Position numbers and translations under genes: made by a program
In this document: one piece after another, positions 54,958 through 59,827 of the stretch
How the letters are laid out: the number at the start of each line of letters is the position of its first letter
How positions within the stretch are numbered: the first letter of the stretch is position 1
Notes under the pieces: model-generated
What the model was told of the DNA's origin: nothing
The model's database searches: none
Seen by the model: the letters and a program-made list of their open reading frames with translations, nothing else
From: Bacteroidota bacterium
GTDB taxonomy: Bacteria > Bacteroidota > Bacteroidia > B-17B0 > Aurantibacillaceae
Direction of reading: 5' to 3'
Assembly (NCBI GenBank): GCA_013288015.1
Contig: JABDCR010000003.1
Location: forward strand, 1 to 64,000
DNA length: 64,000 bases

Positions 54958-55080
54958 TTCATTTCGAAGGGGGCTGAACGTTAAGAAAATATCCAGTGGA
55001 TATTTTTAGTGAAGAGCCAGCTTGTGTGAAAGCCTGAGAAATCTGTTTTGAAACGGATTTCTCCCTCTGGTCGAAATGAC
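54958..55080. repeat. Palindromic repeat, long variant
   Basis: Ends are TTCATTTCGA and TCGAAATGAC, as in the copies at 55942 and 56377. It is 123 bp because of an extra internal part with its own hairpin (54986-54994 with 54998-55006); the inner GAGAAATCTGTTTT / AAACGGATTTCTC hairpin is also present. Confidence 0.8.
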
Positions 55081-55941: not shown

Positions 55942-56008
55942 GTCATTTCGAAGGAAACATGACTGAGAAATCTGTTTGAAACGGATTTCTCCCTGCGGTC
56001 GAAATGAC
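55942..56008. repeat. Palindromic repeat, copy 2 (3' side of the GIY-YIG gene)
   Basis: 67 bp. Outer inverted repeat GTCATTTCGA / TCGAAATGAC; inner hairpin at 55965-55991 (13-bp arms, one mismatch pair, loop of one base). It ends 6 bp from the GIY-YIG stop codon. Confidence 0.85.
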
Positions 56009-56014
56009 AAGGGG

Positions 56015-56323
56015 TTATTCAATCTCATTATTTAAAAACTTCCATTCCGGATTAAATGAAGTAATTAAATTGTTTTTCTTTTCCCTCCTCCACCTTTTAA
56101 TTTCTTTTTCTCTTTTTATTGCATGGTCAATAAATTCAAACCTTTCAAAATATACAAGGTTATAACAGTAATATTTTCCTGTAAATGTTTCTGAGTTATA
56201 TATGTTTTGTTGATGTTGGTGTAAACGGGTTTTTAAATTGTTTGTTACACCAATATATAAGGTAGTTTTAATGTGATTAGTTGTTATATAAACGAAGTAA
56301 TTATGTGTTCCAATTGGTTTCAC
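56015..56323 (-). CDS. Single-domain GIY-YIG endonuclease
   Basis: 102 aa from a GTG start. The domain covers nearly the whole protein: YFVYITT then LYIGVTNNL (the GIY-YIG strands), TRLHQH (catalytic Arg) and AIKREKEIKRW (catalytic Glu helix). This is the short UPF0213/YhbQ-like type; such genes are multicopy in many Bacteroidota. Palindromic repeats lie on both sides within about 15 bp (copy 2 at 55942-56008; a half copy from 56339), so gene and repeats look like one mobile unit. It lies between yjdM and leuS, on the same strand. Confidence 0.9.
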   Translation of the reverse strand: MKPIGTHNYFVYITTNHIKTTLYIGVTNNLKTRLHQHQQNIYNSETFTGKYYCYNLVYFERFEFIDHAIKREKEIKRWRREKKNNLITSFNPEWKFLNNEIE

Positions 56324-56338
56324 TTATTCAAATATAAA

Positions 56339-56363
56339 GATTTCTTCCTCTGGTTGAAATGAC
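56339..56363. repeat. Half copy of the palindromic repeat
   Basis: GATTTCTTCCTCTGGTTGAAATGAC matches only the right half of the other copies, with changes. It lies 16 bp before the GIY-YIG start and 14 bp from the full copy 3. Confidence 0.7.
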
Positions 56364-56376
56364 AGAGCTAGTGGTT

Positions 56377-56445
56377 GTCATTTCGAAGGAGGAACGACTG
56401 AGAAATCCGTTTCTGAAACAGATTTCTCCCTTCAGTCGAAATGAC
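56377..56445. repeat. Palindromic repeat, copy 3
   Basis: 69 bp with GTCATTTCGA / TCGAAATGAC ends and GAGAAATCCGTTTC / GAAACAGATTTCTC inner hairpin. It lies 14 bp beyond the leuS stop and 5' of the GIY-YIG gene. Confidence 0.85.
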
Positions 56446-56458
56446 AAGGGCGTGAAAA

Positions 56459-59400
56459 TTACATCACAATATTTACAATTTTTTTAGGAACCACAATTAC
56501 TTTTTTAGGTGTTTTGCCTTCTAAGTATTTGTGGGTTTGTTCGGCCTCCATTACTATTTTTTCAATTTCTTGTTGAGATAAGGTTAAAGGAAGTTCGATA
56601 TTAAAACGTGTTTTGCCGTTAAACGAAATAGGATAGGCAAAATTATCTTCTACCAAATGTGCTTCGTTTACCATAGGGAAAGCAGCATTGGTTATGCTTT
56701 CTGTATGCCCTAATTGATTCCACAACTCTTCGGTTATGTGTGGCGCATAAGGAGAAAGTATAATTAACAAAGGCTCTAATATGGCACGCTTGTTACATTT
56801 TAAATCGGTTAGCTCGTTTACCAAAATCATAAAATTACTTACCGATGTGTTGAACGAAAAACGCTCAATGTCTTCAGTAATTTTTTTAATGCTTTTGTGC
56901 AAGGCTTTTAATTCTGCTTTAGTTGGCTCGGCATCAGTAACCGCAAAACCGCCTGTGTTATAAAACAAACGCCATAGTTTTTTTAAGAAACCATGTACGC
57001 CTGTTATTCCGTTAGTGTTCCAAGGTTTGCTTTGCTCTAAAGGACCTAAAAACATTTCGTATAAACGCAAAGTGTCTGCTCCAAAACTATTACATATGTC
57101 ATCAGGAGAAACAACATTGTATTTAGACTTAGACATTTTTTCTACTTCCCATCCGCAGATATAATCTCCATTTTTTTCTGTAATGAATTTAAATTCTTTT
57201 TTTCCACTTTTGAACTTTTTAAATTCTTCTTTATCTAAAACATCATTATGAACTCTATTTACATCAACATGATGTTTAGTAAATCTAATTTGTCCTTTCT
57301 GTCCAGAATGTGAAACACCATCTTTGCTCAAAATTTGATTTATTTCTGCAAGAACATAAGACCAAGTAGGTTCTTCATCGATATTTTCAACTAAATTATG
57401 TGAAACAAAAATTTCAGGGAATTCATAATCTGCACGTGTCGCCACTCCAAATTCCATCAATCGATAAATAAAATTACTCCTACCCTGTATCATCCCCTGG
57501 TTAATTAATTTTTTGGCAGGTTCTTCGGTAGTAATGTAACCAAGGTCTTTAAGGGCTTTGGTCCAAAAACGCACGTATAATAAATGTCCGGTAGCATGTT
57601 CGCTGCCGCCAATATATAAGTCAACTTCTTTCCAGTAGTCGGTCAATTTTTTACTCGCAAATTCTTTATTGTTATGCGCATCCATATAACGTAAAAAATA
57701 CCAGGAGCTGCCTGCCCAACCCGGCATGGTGGTTGTTTCTAATGGAAACCCTTCTTCTTTTGAAACTACTTCTTCTTTGATAGGATTCCAATTCCACTTT
57801 GTAGATCTAGCTAACGGTGGTTCTCCATCTTCAGTAGGCAAATATTTATCTACTTCGGGCAACAGCAAAGGCAATTCGTTTTCGGGCATGGCATAAGGGA
57901 TACCGTTTTTGTAATAAATTGGTATAGGCTCACCCCAATAACGCTGGCGGCCAAACACGGCATCGCGTAAACGGAAATTAATTTTTCCTTTTCCTAAATT
58001 TAGTTTTTCAATTTCTTCAATAGCACGTTTAATGGCTTGTTTAACTTCCAAGCCATTTAAAAAATCGGAGTTAATTAATTTACCCTCTTTAGCATCGTAC
58101 GATTCTTTGCTTAAATCTCCGCCTGCAACCACTTCGGTAATGGGTAAATTAAAATGTTTGGCAAAAGCATAATCGCGCGAATCGTGGCCCGGCACAGCCA
58201 TTACAGCACCTGTGCCATAACCAGCCAGTACATAATCGCCTATCCAAATAGGAATTTGTTTTTGCGTAAACGGATGTATAACATAAGCCCCGCTAAACAC
58301 CCCTGATACACGTTTTACATCAGCCTGACGTTCGCGCTCACTACGGTTTTTCGCCTGCGTTACATAAGCATCTACTTCTGCTTTTTGTGCAGGGGTAACT
58401 AATGTATCAACTAATTCGTGCTCAGGTGCAAGCGTTACAAACGACACACCAAAAATGGTATCGGGGCGTGTAGTAAACACTTCGATAAAAGTCTCCCCAC
58501 CTAAATCCTCCCCAAAGGGAAGGACTTTTTTATCCTCCGATTTAGATTGTTCTTTAAGTTGAAGTTTTATCTCTTCTACAACACTTTCAATATCTACCAA
58601 AACTTGTTCGTTTTTAAAACGAATTACTTTATAGCCAAGTTCATTTAATCTTTCTGTTCGTGCAGCATCTTCTTCTTTTTGATAATCGTGGATATCACCA
58701 TCTACTTCAACTACCAATTTTTTAGAGATGCAAACAAAATCGGCAATAAATCTATCAATGATATGTTGTCTTCTAAAATGTTCATCCAATTTATTTCCTT
58801 TAAGAGATTGCCATAAAGCACTTTCAGCCGGTGTTGGATTATCCCTCATTGAAACGGCTTTATCTTGCAACAAATTCCACATTTGAGAATCTGTTGTATG
58901 ATAACCGGGTGTGGCTCCCTTTCCTTTGGAAAGGGCCGGGGATAGGTCTTTATGTATTTTAAATTTCAACGATGTTCCTTCGCTTTTACCAATCCAATAA
59001 CGTTGAGATTCTTTTAAAGGTTCAGGCCAATCTAATGTATCCAAGCCATCTAACAAACGTTGGGCATAAGCGGTAATGCGCATGCTCCATTGTTGCATTA
59101 ATTTACGCTCAACAGGATAGCCCCCACGTTCAGACACGCCATCTTTTACTTCATCATTAGCCAACACCGTGCCCATAGCAGGACACCAGTTTACCCAAGC
59201 TTCGCTCAAGTAAGCCATGCGGTAATTCATCAGCACATCGCTGCGTTGCTTTTCAGTAAATGATTTCCAATCCGTAGCAGAAAATATTTCAGTATCGGCA
59301 CAAACGGCATTAACCTTAGCGTTTCCGTTTGCTTCAAATTCTTTTATAAGGGTTTCCAGTTTCTCTGTTTTATCTGTGGCTTTATTATACCAGGCATTAA

Positions 59401-59827
59401 ACAACTGAATAAAAATCCACTGAGTCCATTTATAATAATCAGGATTTGACGTGCGCACCTCTCTGTCCCAATCAAACGAGAAACCAATTTTATCTAACTG
59501 CTCGCGGTAACGCGCAATGTTTTGTTCGGTTGTAATTTTTGGGTGTTGCCCAGTTTGTATAGCATACTGTTCTGCCGGCAAGCCAAAAGAATCGTAGCCC
59601 ATTGGGTGCAACACATTAAAACCTTTGTGGCGTTTGTAACGCGCATAAATATCAGATGCAATATAACCCAATGGATGCCCTACGTGCAAACCCGCACCCG
59701 ATGGATACGGAAACATATCTAACACATAATATTTTGGTTTGGTAGAATTGTTATCGGCAGCAAAAGTTTTTTTATCAGCCCAATACGCTTGCCAACGCTT
59801 TTCTATATCTTTGAAGTTATATTCCAT
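56459..59827 (-). CDS. leuS: Leucyl-tRNA synthetase with inserted DUF559 endonuclease
   Basis: Charges tRNA-Leu and edits errors. HIGH-type motif [14 protein letters not shown] (about 42-55), CP1 editing motif [10 protein letters not shown] (about 450) and KMSKSKYN near 880 are intact. At 1122 aa it is about 150-200 longer than usual. Residues about 292-446 (58490-58954) hold a complete DUF559 nuclease domain ([39 protein letters not shown]) between EGTSLKFKI and [15 protein letters not shown] second extra segment of about 40 residues lies near 57290-57465. Frame is kept throughout, so the enzyme is probably functional with its extra domain. Confidence 0.96.
58490..58954 (-). mobile_element. 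In-frame DUF559 insertion in leuS
   Basis: A 465-bp segment absent from ordinary LeuRS. It encodes about 155 residues with a whole DUF559 (Vsr-like) endonuclease domain. At each end is a short hairpin: CCTCCCCAAAGGGAAGG at 58508-58524 and CCCTTTCCTTTGGAAAGGG at 58917-58935; the ends are imperfect inverted repeats of each other. Absence of stops in this frame keeps leuS readable. Boundaries are inferred from the LeuRS pattern and may be off by several codons. Confidence 0.8.

Follow-up and report, generated by a model that had tools for sequence, protein, structure and literature searches.

We report here a compact unit of 504 bp, made up of a small nuclease gene and the palindromic repeats that bracket it, in a stretch of 64,000 nucleotides (hereafter the window; contig JABDCR010000003.1, assembly GCA_013288015.1) from a bacterium of the Bacteroidota. 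The gene encodes a protein of 102 amino acids with a single GIY-YIG domain, and the repeats resemble repetitive extragenic palindromes (REPs), in particular the CGTC type described by Di Nocera et al. (2013, PMC3733652). In the known REPtrons, tagged REP hairpins flank the gene of a REP-associated tyrosine transposase (RAYT). We regard it as probable that the unit in the window is a REPtron-like element, in which the gene of a structure-specific GIY-YIG nuclease is flanked by its own cognate CGTC-type REP hairpins. On comparative sequence evidence, we conclude that the GIY-YIG subfamily to which this protein belongs is a dedicated partner of CGTC-type REPs.

Homologues of the nuclease were taken from genomes of the GTDB, from relatives, and from 296 Bacteroidia genomes. 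Around 96 homologues, strict hairpins occur at a density of 4.9 per kb within 300 bp of the gene, versus 0.26 per kb farther out. Across 212 distinct Bacteroidota loci, 680 exact hairpins are found within 350 bp of the gene, versus 40 in reversed flanks; at least one such hairpin is present at 169 of these loci, and most of the remaining 43 still have repeats common to both flanks. More generally, the upstream and downstream flanks have a 15-mer or longer sequence in common for 144 of 202 genes, versus 1 of 202 in the control. Within the same sampled genomes, 20 of the 26 genes of this subfamily are repeat-flanked; the corresponding counts are 0 of 29 for Y1 transposase (Y1_Tnp) genes, 1 of 16 for GIY-YIG genes of the UvrC/DnaQ type, and 0 of 10 for another short GIY-YIG subfamily. 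Since these control classes are almost never flanked, the association is not a general trait of small, mobile or GIY-YIG genes. Taken together, the flank counts show that the nuclease subfamily is specifically associated with these repeats. A Y1 or RAYT transposase was also considered as the enzyme of the repeats, and is ruled out in the sampled genomes by the absence of any flanked Y1_Tnp gene.

The gene usually occurs in one to a few copies per genome, and its presence is associated with that of dispersed palindromes. Among the 296 Bacteroidia genomes, at least three palindromes are found in 50 of the 95 genomes that contain the subfamily (defined by E≤1e-25), versus 21 of the 201 that do not, with a p-value of 2e-14 that overstates independence, as the genomes are related to each other. 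Both margins of this comparison are approximate, because a single fixed palindrome pattern was used and at most 16 candidates per genome were scored. The original prediction had proposed that repeats and GIY-YIG genes would co-occur beyond chance, and both the controlled flank statistics and the genome counts agree with it.

The repeats of the Bacteroidota follow a common plan: GTC, a stem of 5 bp starting with A, a loop that is usually framed by GA, the complementary stem and, usually, CT. The tag, which lies outside the stem, is TGTC in the window and in other Bacteroidota, and CGTC in alpha-proteobacteria and Neisseria. At 542 of 797 GTCANNNNGA sites in the flanks, the exact complement of the site's own stem occurs at most 40 nt away; when stems are swapped among types, the mean is 32. 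There are 21 stem types with at least two exact pairs, of which 15 begin with AT and 5 with AC, the first A being demanded by the scan itself. When ten chosen example sequences are aligned, compensatory change is seen at four of the five stem pairs, and the second stem position is kept or compensated in all ten. This covariation shows that compensatory changes have preserved the stem of the hairpin. Of 504 distinct hairpins, 285 have a GA directly after the stem and another directly before its partner, and the bases within usually pair further. In the Bacteroidota, the structure consists of 5 bp, the GA/GA step, and then usually 1-3 bp and a small loop. The inner part of some of these hairpins includes GCGAAGC, which forms a very stable DNA mini-hairpin. 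The alpha-proteobacterial repeat, CGTC-ATCCTCGGG-CTTGA-CCCGAGGAT, has a stem of 8-9 bp and a loop of 4-5 nt.

Two halves may also be joined head to head, with their tags outside, into a full palindrome; there are 173 such dimers in one genome, and 6 in the genome of the window. A full palindrome pairs outer with outer and inner with inner segments, so that a cruciform does not require the outer segment of a half to be complementary to the inner segment of that half. That pairing within one half is conserved points to the single-half hairpin as the structure that would be recognised. A lone half folds weakly in the AT-rich window, and so a protein or a single-stranded context would presumably be needed there.

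On a tree of 169 proteins, 130 of which have a common repeat type and were used for counting, we find 40 changes of stem type, versus 75.8±2.6 when types are shuffled and 65.0±2.6 when they are shuffled within host families. The dominant type is the same as that of the nearest homologue in another genome in 20 of 43 cases, and the same as that of a diverged paralogue in the same genome in 6 of 60 comparisons. Dispersed repeats likewise match the resident gene. For example, at least five dispersed ATTTC hairpins are found in 11 of 14 genomes with an ATTTC-type gene, in 6 of 54 with genes of other types, and in 4 of 155 without the gene; the match is weaker, but of the same kind, for ATTGC (p = 0.009). 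The tree and the dispersed copies show that stem type tracks the lineage of the nuclease, even between paralogues within one genome. The analogy to a REP/RAYT pairing, with a nuclease of another family, has withstood flank controls, covariation and the placement of types on the protein tree.

The pairing extends beyond the Bacteroidota. Among 14 homologues in a plasmid collection, nearly all of them from other phyla, 11 have, near the gene, either these hairpins or an inverted repeat that forms an equivalent hairpin. They include alpha-proteobacterial plasmids of Shinella, Sinorhizobium, Neorhizobium, Rhizobium, Novosphingobium, Azospirillum and Sphingobium, as well as Neisseria gonorrhoeae (with a dRS3-type repeat), the cyanobacterium Planktothrix, and a plasmid of Spirosoma (Bacteroidota). 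In N. aromaticivorans, the copy is a hairpin inverted repeat of 29 bp whose form differs slightly (CGTCGCCCC...). The Photobacterium homologue has a distant repeat copy only, and no repeat of this type was found in the flanks of the Rhizobium tumorigenes and Methylobacterium homologues. Of the species or genera that PMC3733652 names as hosts of CGTC REPs, A. lipoferum, S. meliloti, N. aromaticivorans and Neisseria show the pairing here. Separately, two loci on contigs labelled Deltaproteobacteria and Dadabacteria (L021 and L033) contain homologues of 56-60% identity with Bacteroidota-type stems, to be explained by transfer or by misbinning. On the Planktothrix plasmid (L312), the neighbours on the two sides of the unit and its repeats are annotated as MmeI-type restriction-modification and as DISARM drmA.

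Several sites suggest movement. In Azospirillum lipoferum, sufB and sufC are separated by a block of about 510 bp that consists of a palindrome, the gene and another palindrome; this block is missing in three relatives whose flanking genes are about 95% identical, and which have no repeat there either. On Sphingobium plasmids, the gene lies in the fnrL region between the arms of a 31-bp inverted repeat, and strain TYG64 has at this site one hairpin, exactly what results when the two ACCCCGGG stem arms are joined. In Sinorhizobium K101, one hairpin occupies the site at which S. meliloti Ak57 has the gene and its repeats. These comparisons show that sites which are otherwise conserved may either have the unit or lack it. 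For Azospirillum, gain is the simpler reading; the direction, gain or loss, is settled at none of the three sites by sequence alone. The gene is also missing from many close relatives and is located at different loci; in one genome of the window's own genus (G004), there are two copies at sites unrelated to each other, and both copies have repeats of their own. In congeners, the gene order differs downstream of leuS, so that the leuS-yjdM region offers no usable empty site for the window's unit. We conclude that gene and repeats probably behave as a mobile, REPtron-like unit; that they form one compact unit, as originally proposed, is supported by the present/absent sites and the flank statistics. 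In S. meliloti Ak57 (L315), repeats separate the full GIY-YIG frame from a partial second one next to it, which suggests tandem duplication.

The features of the window are listed in Table 1. Its sequence confirms what had been described for this locus: a single-domain GIY-YIG gene bracketed by repeats, with a full palindrome 6 bp from its stop codon, and a half and a full copy before its start.

Table 1. Repeats and nuclease gene in the window. Fold z scores compare single-stranded DNA with shuffled sequences.
Feature	Position	Strand	Remarks
Truncated further palindrome copy, ~860 bp from unit	55036..55080	.	Missing from earlier list
Full palindrome, 6 bp after stop codon	55942..56008	.	REPIN-like head-to-head dimer; DNA fold z -6.1
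Single-domain GIY-YIG nuclease gene	56015..56323	-	102 aa, GTG start; Pfam PF01541
Single half repeat GTCATTTCAACCAGAGGAAGAAATCT, 14 bp before start codon	56338..56363	-	Weak fold alone, z -0.5
Second full palindrome, same type	56377..56445	.	DNA fold z -4.7

The first full palindrome consists of a long-loop half (55942-55973, forward strand) and a short-loop half (about 55983-56008, reverse strand), a combination that is repeated in the genome's other palindromes. The truncated copy may have a degenerate left end that begins near 54959. The window's genome contains five exact full palindromes, 83-94% alike, and its half hairpins of this type number 24, versus none in a control read backwards. 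The probability that at least two of the genome's six matches to the palindrome pattern fall inside the 504-bp interval by chance is about 6e-7 if copies are independent, a rough figure since the copies cluster. The repeats have no match in Rfam, and so belong to no RNA family known there.

The GIY-YIG profile PF01541 matches residues 8-84 of the product (E = 4.9e-12), and the catalytic set of the family is present: Y12, Y23, G25, R33, E72 and N91 are invariant among 32 aligned homologues. The ratio of nonsynonymous to synonymous substitution rates (dN/dS) is about 0.05 when the gene is compared with two copies in a congener, which shows that the gene has evolved under purifying selection. By sequence, the nearest solved relatives are of the UPF0213 type (E = 4.6e-8); these are also the closest folds to an AlphaFold2 (AF2) model (mean predicted local distance difference test score, pLDDT, 91.8), followed by Slx1. 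There is no intron or intein host and no separate DNA-binding domain, only a 102-residue single domain between intergenic repeats, and PADLOC finds no match to a defence system. The genome, a metagenome-assembled genome of 2.47 Mb that is 58% complete, has a single PF01541 gene, and a profile search of this incomplete assembly found no Y1_Tnp.

Two further observations concern neighbouring or distant genes. A DUF559 domain (E = 2.5e-33) lies in frame inside the adjacent leuS product (residues 321-424, window 58556-58867, in the reverse-strand open reading frame 56459-59827); the segment also matches a restriction-endonuclease-like family, weakly and below threshold, and LeuRS frames in relatives range from about 930 to 1144 aa, so an insert of this type may come and go. 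More distant GIY-YIG genes at four loci (L103, L105, L106 and L108) are flanked by repeats of other kinds, such as TGGCTGAGTAGGGCTTTAGCCCGTATCGAA at L105 and CCTTCGAGAACCTCAGGGAGCGGGAGCCTC at L106, which are possibly further enzyme-repeat pairs.

In the mechanism that we favour, and think likely, the repeat is spread through cutting of its hairpin by the nuclease. The protein would recognise a hairpin with a (C/T)GTC tag and a stem starting with A (in Bacteroidota often also with a GA/GA mismatch and another small hairpin inside) when this hairpin is extruded as a cruciform or formed on single-stranded DNA during replication. It would nick or cut the hairpin at or beside the tag; host repair would then excise the repeat, or would copy to another place either the repeat or the complete unit of repeat, gene and repeat. 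Solo palindromes would represent non-autonomous copies of the unit and what recombination has left of it. The place of Slx1, a nuclease of branched DNA, among the nearest folds is in keeping with this scheme.

Several points weigh against it. We know of no strand-transfer chemistry for GIY-YIG enzymes, so that any movement has to depend on repair by the host. Neither a target-site duplication nor an exact insertion boundary can be read at the Azospirillum, Sphingobium and Sinorhizobium sites, and sites with a solo repeat can be read as loss of the gene instead of gain. Moreover, one complete genome (G062) has 173 palindromes and 405 ATTGC half hairpins and no such gene; a search of it for a single-domain GIY-YIG gene, a Y1 transposase or a gene remnant found none of these. 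Its repeats could be accounted for by loss of the gene, by another enzyme, or by movement in trans. Others, including G170, G039 and G256, are also repeat-rich without the gene. By the terms of the original prediction, repeats in genomes lacking the gene would count against it; in a minority of genomes they do occur, while its association of repeats with the gene's flanks stands. Because that association is specific and type-matched, we do not take the gene-less genomes as a refutation, and read them as cases of gene loss or of a second route.

The next most likely explanation, though an unlikely one, is that the repeats spread by other means, and that the nuclease gene is a selfish homing parasite, which cleaves solo REPs and inserts its own copies there, with the repeat arms as homology for repair. 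GIY-YIG is a classic homing-endonuclease domain, the protein has a match to the homing endonuclease phrog_5123, some genomes have repeats without the gene, and K101 and TYG64 have a solo hairpin where relatives have repeat, gene and repeat. Yet dispersed repeats are scarce in most gene-less genomes and match the type of the resident gene, and the Azospirillum relatives without any repeat at the site imply that the whole unit was gained or lost. It is less probable still that the system is domesticated, with the nuclease kept for a host role (for example at stalled forks or cruciforms, or in genome surveillance) and the repeats serving as cis sites that rarely or never move. The low dN/dS and the small number of gene copies per genome are as expected in that case, and domestication has likewise been argued for RAYTs; however, absence from many close relatives, location at different loci, and paralogues with different repeat types in one genome are unlike a fixed housekeeping role.

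We give little credence to the idea that gene and repeats are both passengers of another transposase that recognises CGTC-type hairpins. The lack of known transposition chemistry in GIY-YIG nucleases and the repeat-rich genomes without the gene would be accommodated, but Y1_Tnp, the transposase looked for here, is missing altogether from three genomes that contain repeats (G000, G033 and G301), and repeat type tracks the GIY-YIG protein tree. Finally, the repeats are dispersed and fold as hairpins, as would ordinary terminator-like intergenic palindromes that happen to lie beside a small gene; such a coincidence is contradicted by the flank controls, the covariation and the matching of types, and is hardly credible.

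CGTC REPs are widespread small bacterial repeats, reported in Bacteroidetes, alpha-proteobacteria and Neisseria, for which no dedicated transposase was found; they include Neisseria dRS3 and Rickettsia RPE-4 and RPE-6 (PMC3733652). They are defined by a (C/T)GTC tag outside the stem, A-T pairs at stem positions 1-2, a stem of 8-9 bp, a loop of 4-5 nt, and an arrangement mostly in head-to-head dimers (PMC3733652). The GIY-YIG subfamily is a strong candidate for the enzyme that these repeats, left without one in 2013, reportedly lacked. We lean, if only somewhat, towards the broader claim of a class of mobile elements in which a single-domain GIY-YIG protein is the sole enzyme, acts on its own hairpins, and is the missing enzyme of the CGTC-REP superfamily, including dRS3. 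In open-access full text, which leaves most subscription papers and preprints outside its scope, we found no paper linking GIY-YIG with REP, dRS3 or CGTC repeats. A dedicated nuclease with lineage-matched hairpins makes the question of the enzyme testable at the bench. It would also give a function to many genes annotated merely as 'GIY-YIG nuclease family protein'. REP-like systems would be shown to have arisen on two or more occasions, with enzymes that are not related to each other; short palindromes would then have a further route of spread, besides transposases and reverse transcriptases.

How, then, does the system compare with those already known? The repeats are, or closely resemble, CGTC REPs: they share the (C/T)GTC tag outside the stem, an A-initial stem (mostly AT), an unpaired tail, and head-to-head and hetero-loop dimers, and so appear to fit the superfamily apart from stem length in the Bacteroidota, where we find 5 bp plus GA/GA rather than 8-9 bp; the tail is CT rather than CCA. 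As in REP/REPIN-RAYT REPtrons, tagged hairpins flank one small gene, often in inverted orientation, non-autonomous copies are dispersed, and repeat type follows enzyme lineage. Unlike there, the enzyme is a GIY-YIG protein unrelated to the Y1 HUH transposase (TnpA_REP), and the tag is (C/T)GTC, not GTAG. Because a Y1 transposase and a GTAG tag were both looked for and neither was found, the system is best described as working like a REPtron without being a member of the RAYT kind. The single-domain proteins of UPF0213/COG2827 (BH0048, 1zg2; EF2693, 1ywl) have the same fold and are the closest solved relatives, whereas the other short GIY-YIG subfamily of the Bacteroidota is unflanked. Homing endonucleases of the I-TevI type and Penelope-like elements also use a GIY-YIG nuclease as mobility enzyme, but here there is no extra DNA-binding domain, intron or reverse transcriptase, and hairpin repeats are present rather than long homing sites. 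Slx1 shares the fold and cuts branched DNA; it is, however, eukaryotic, works with Slx4, and is not tied to repeats.
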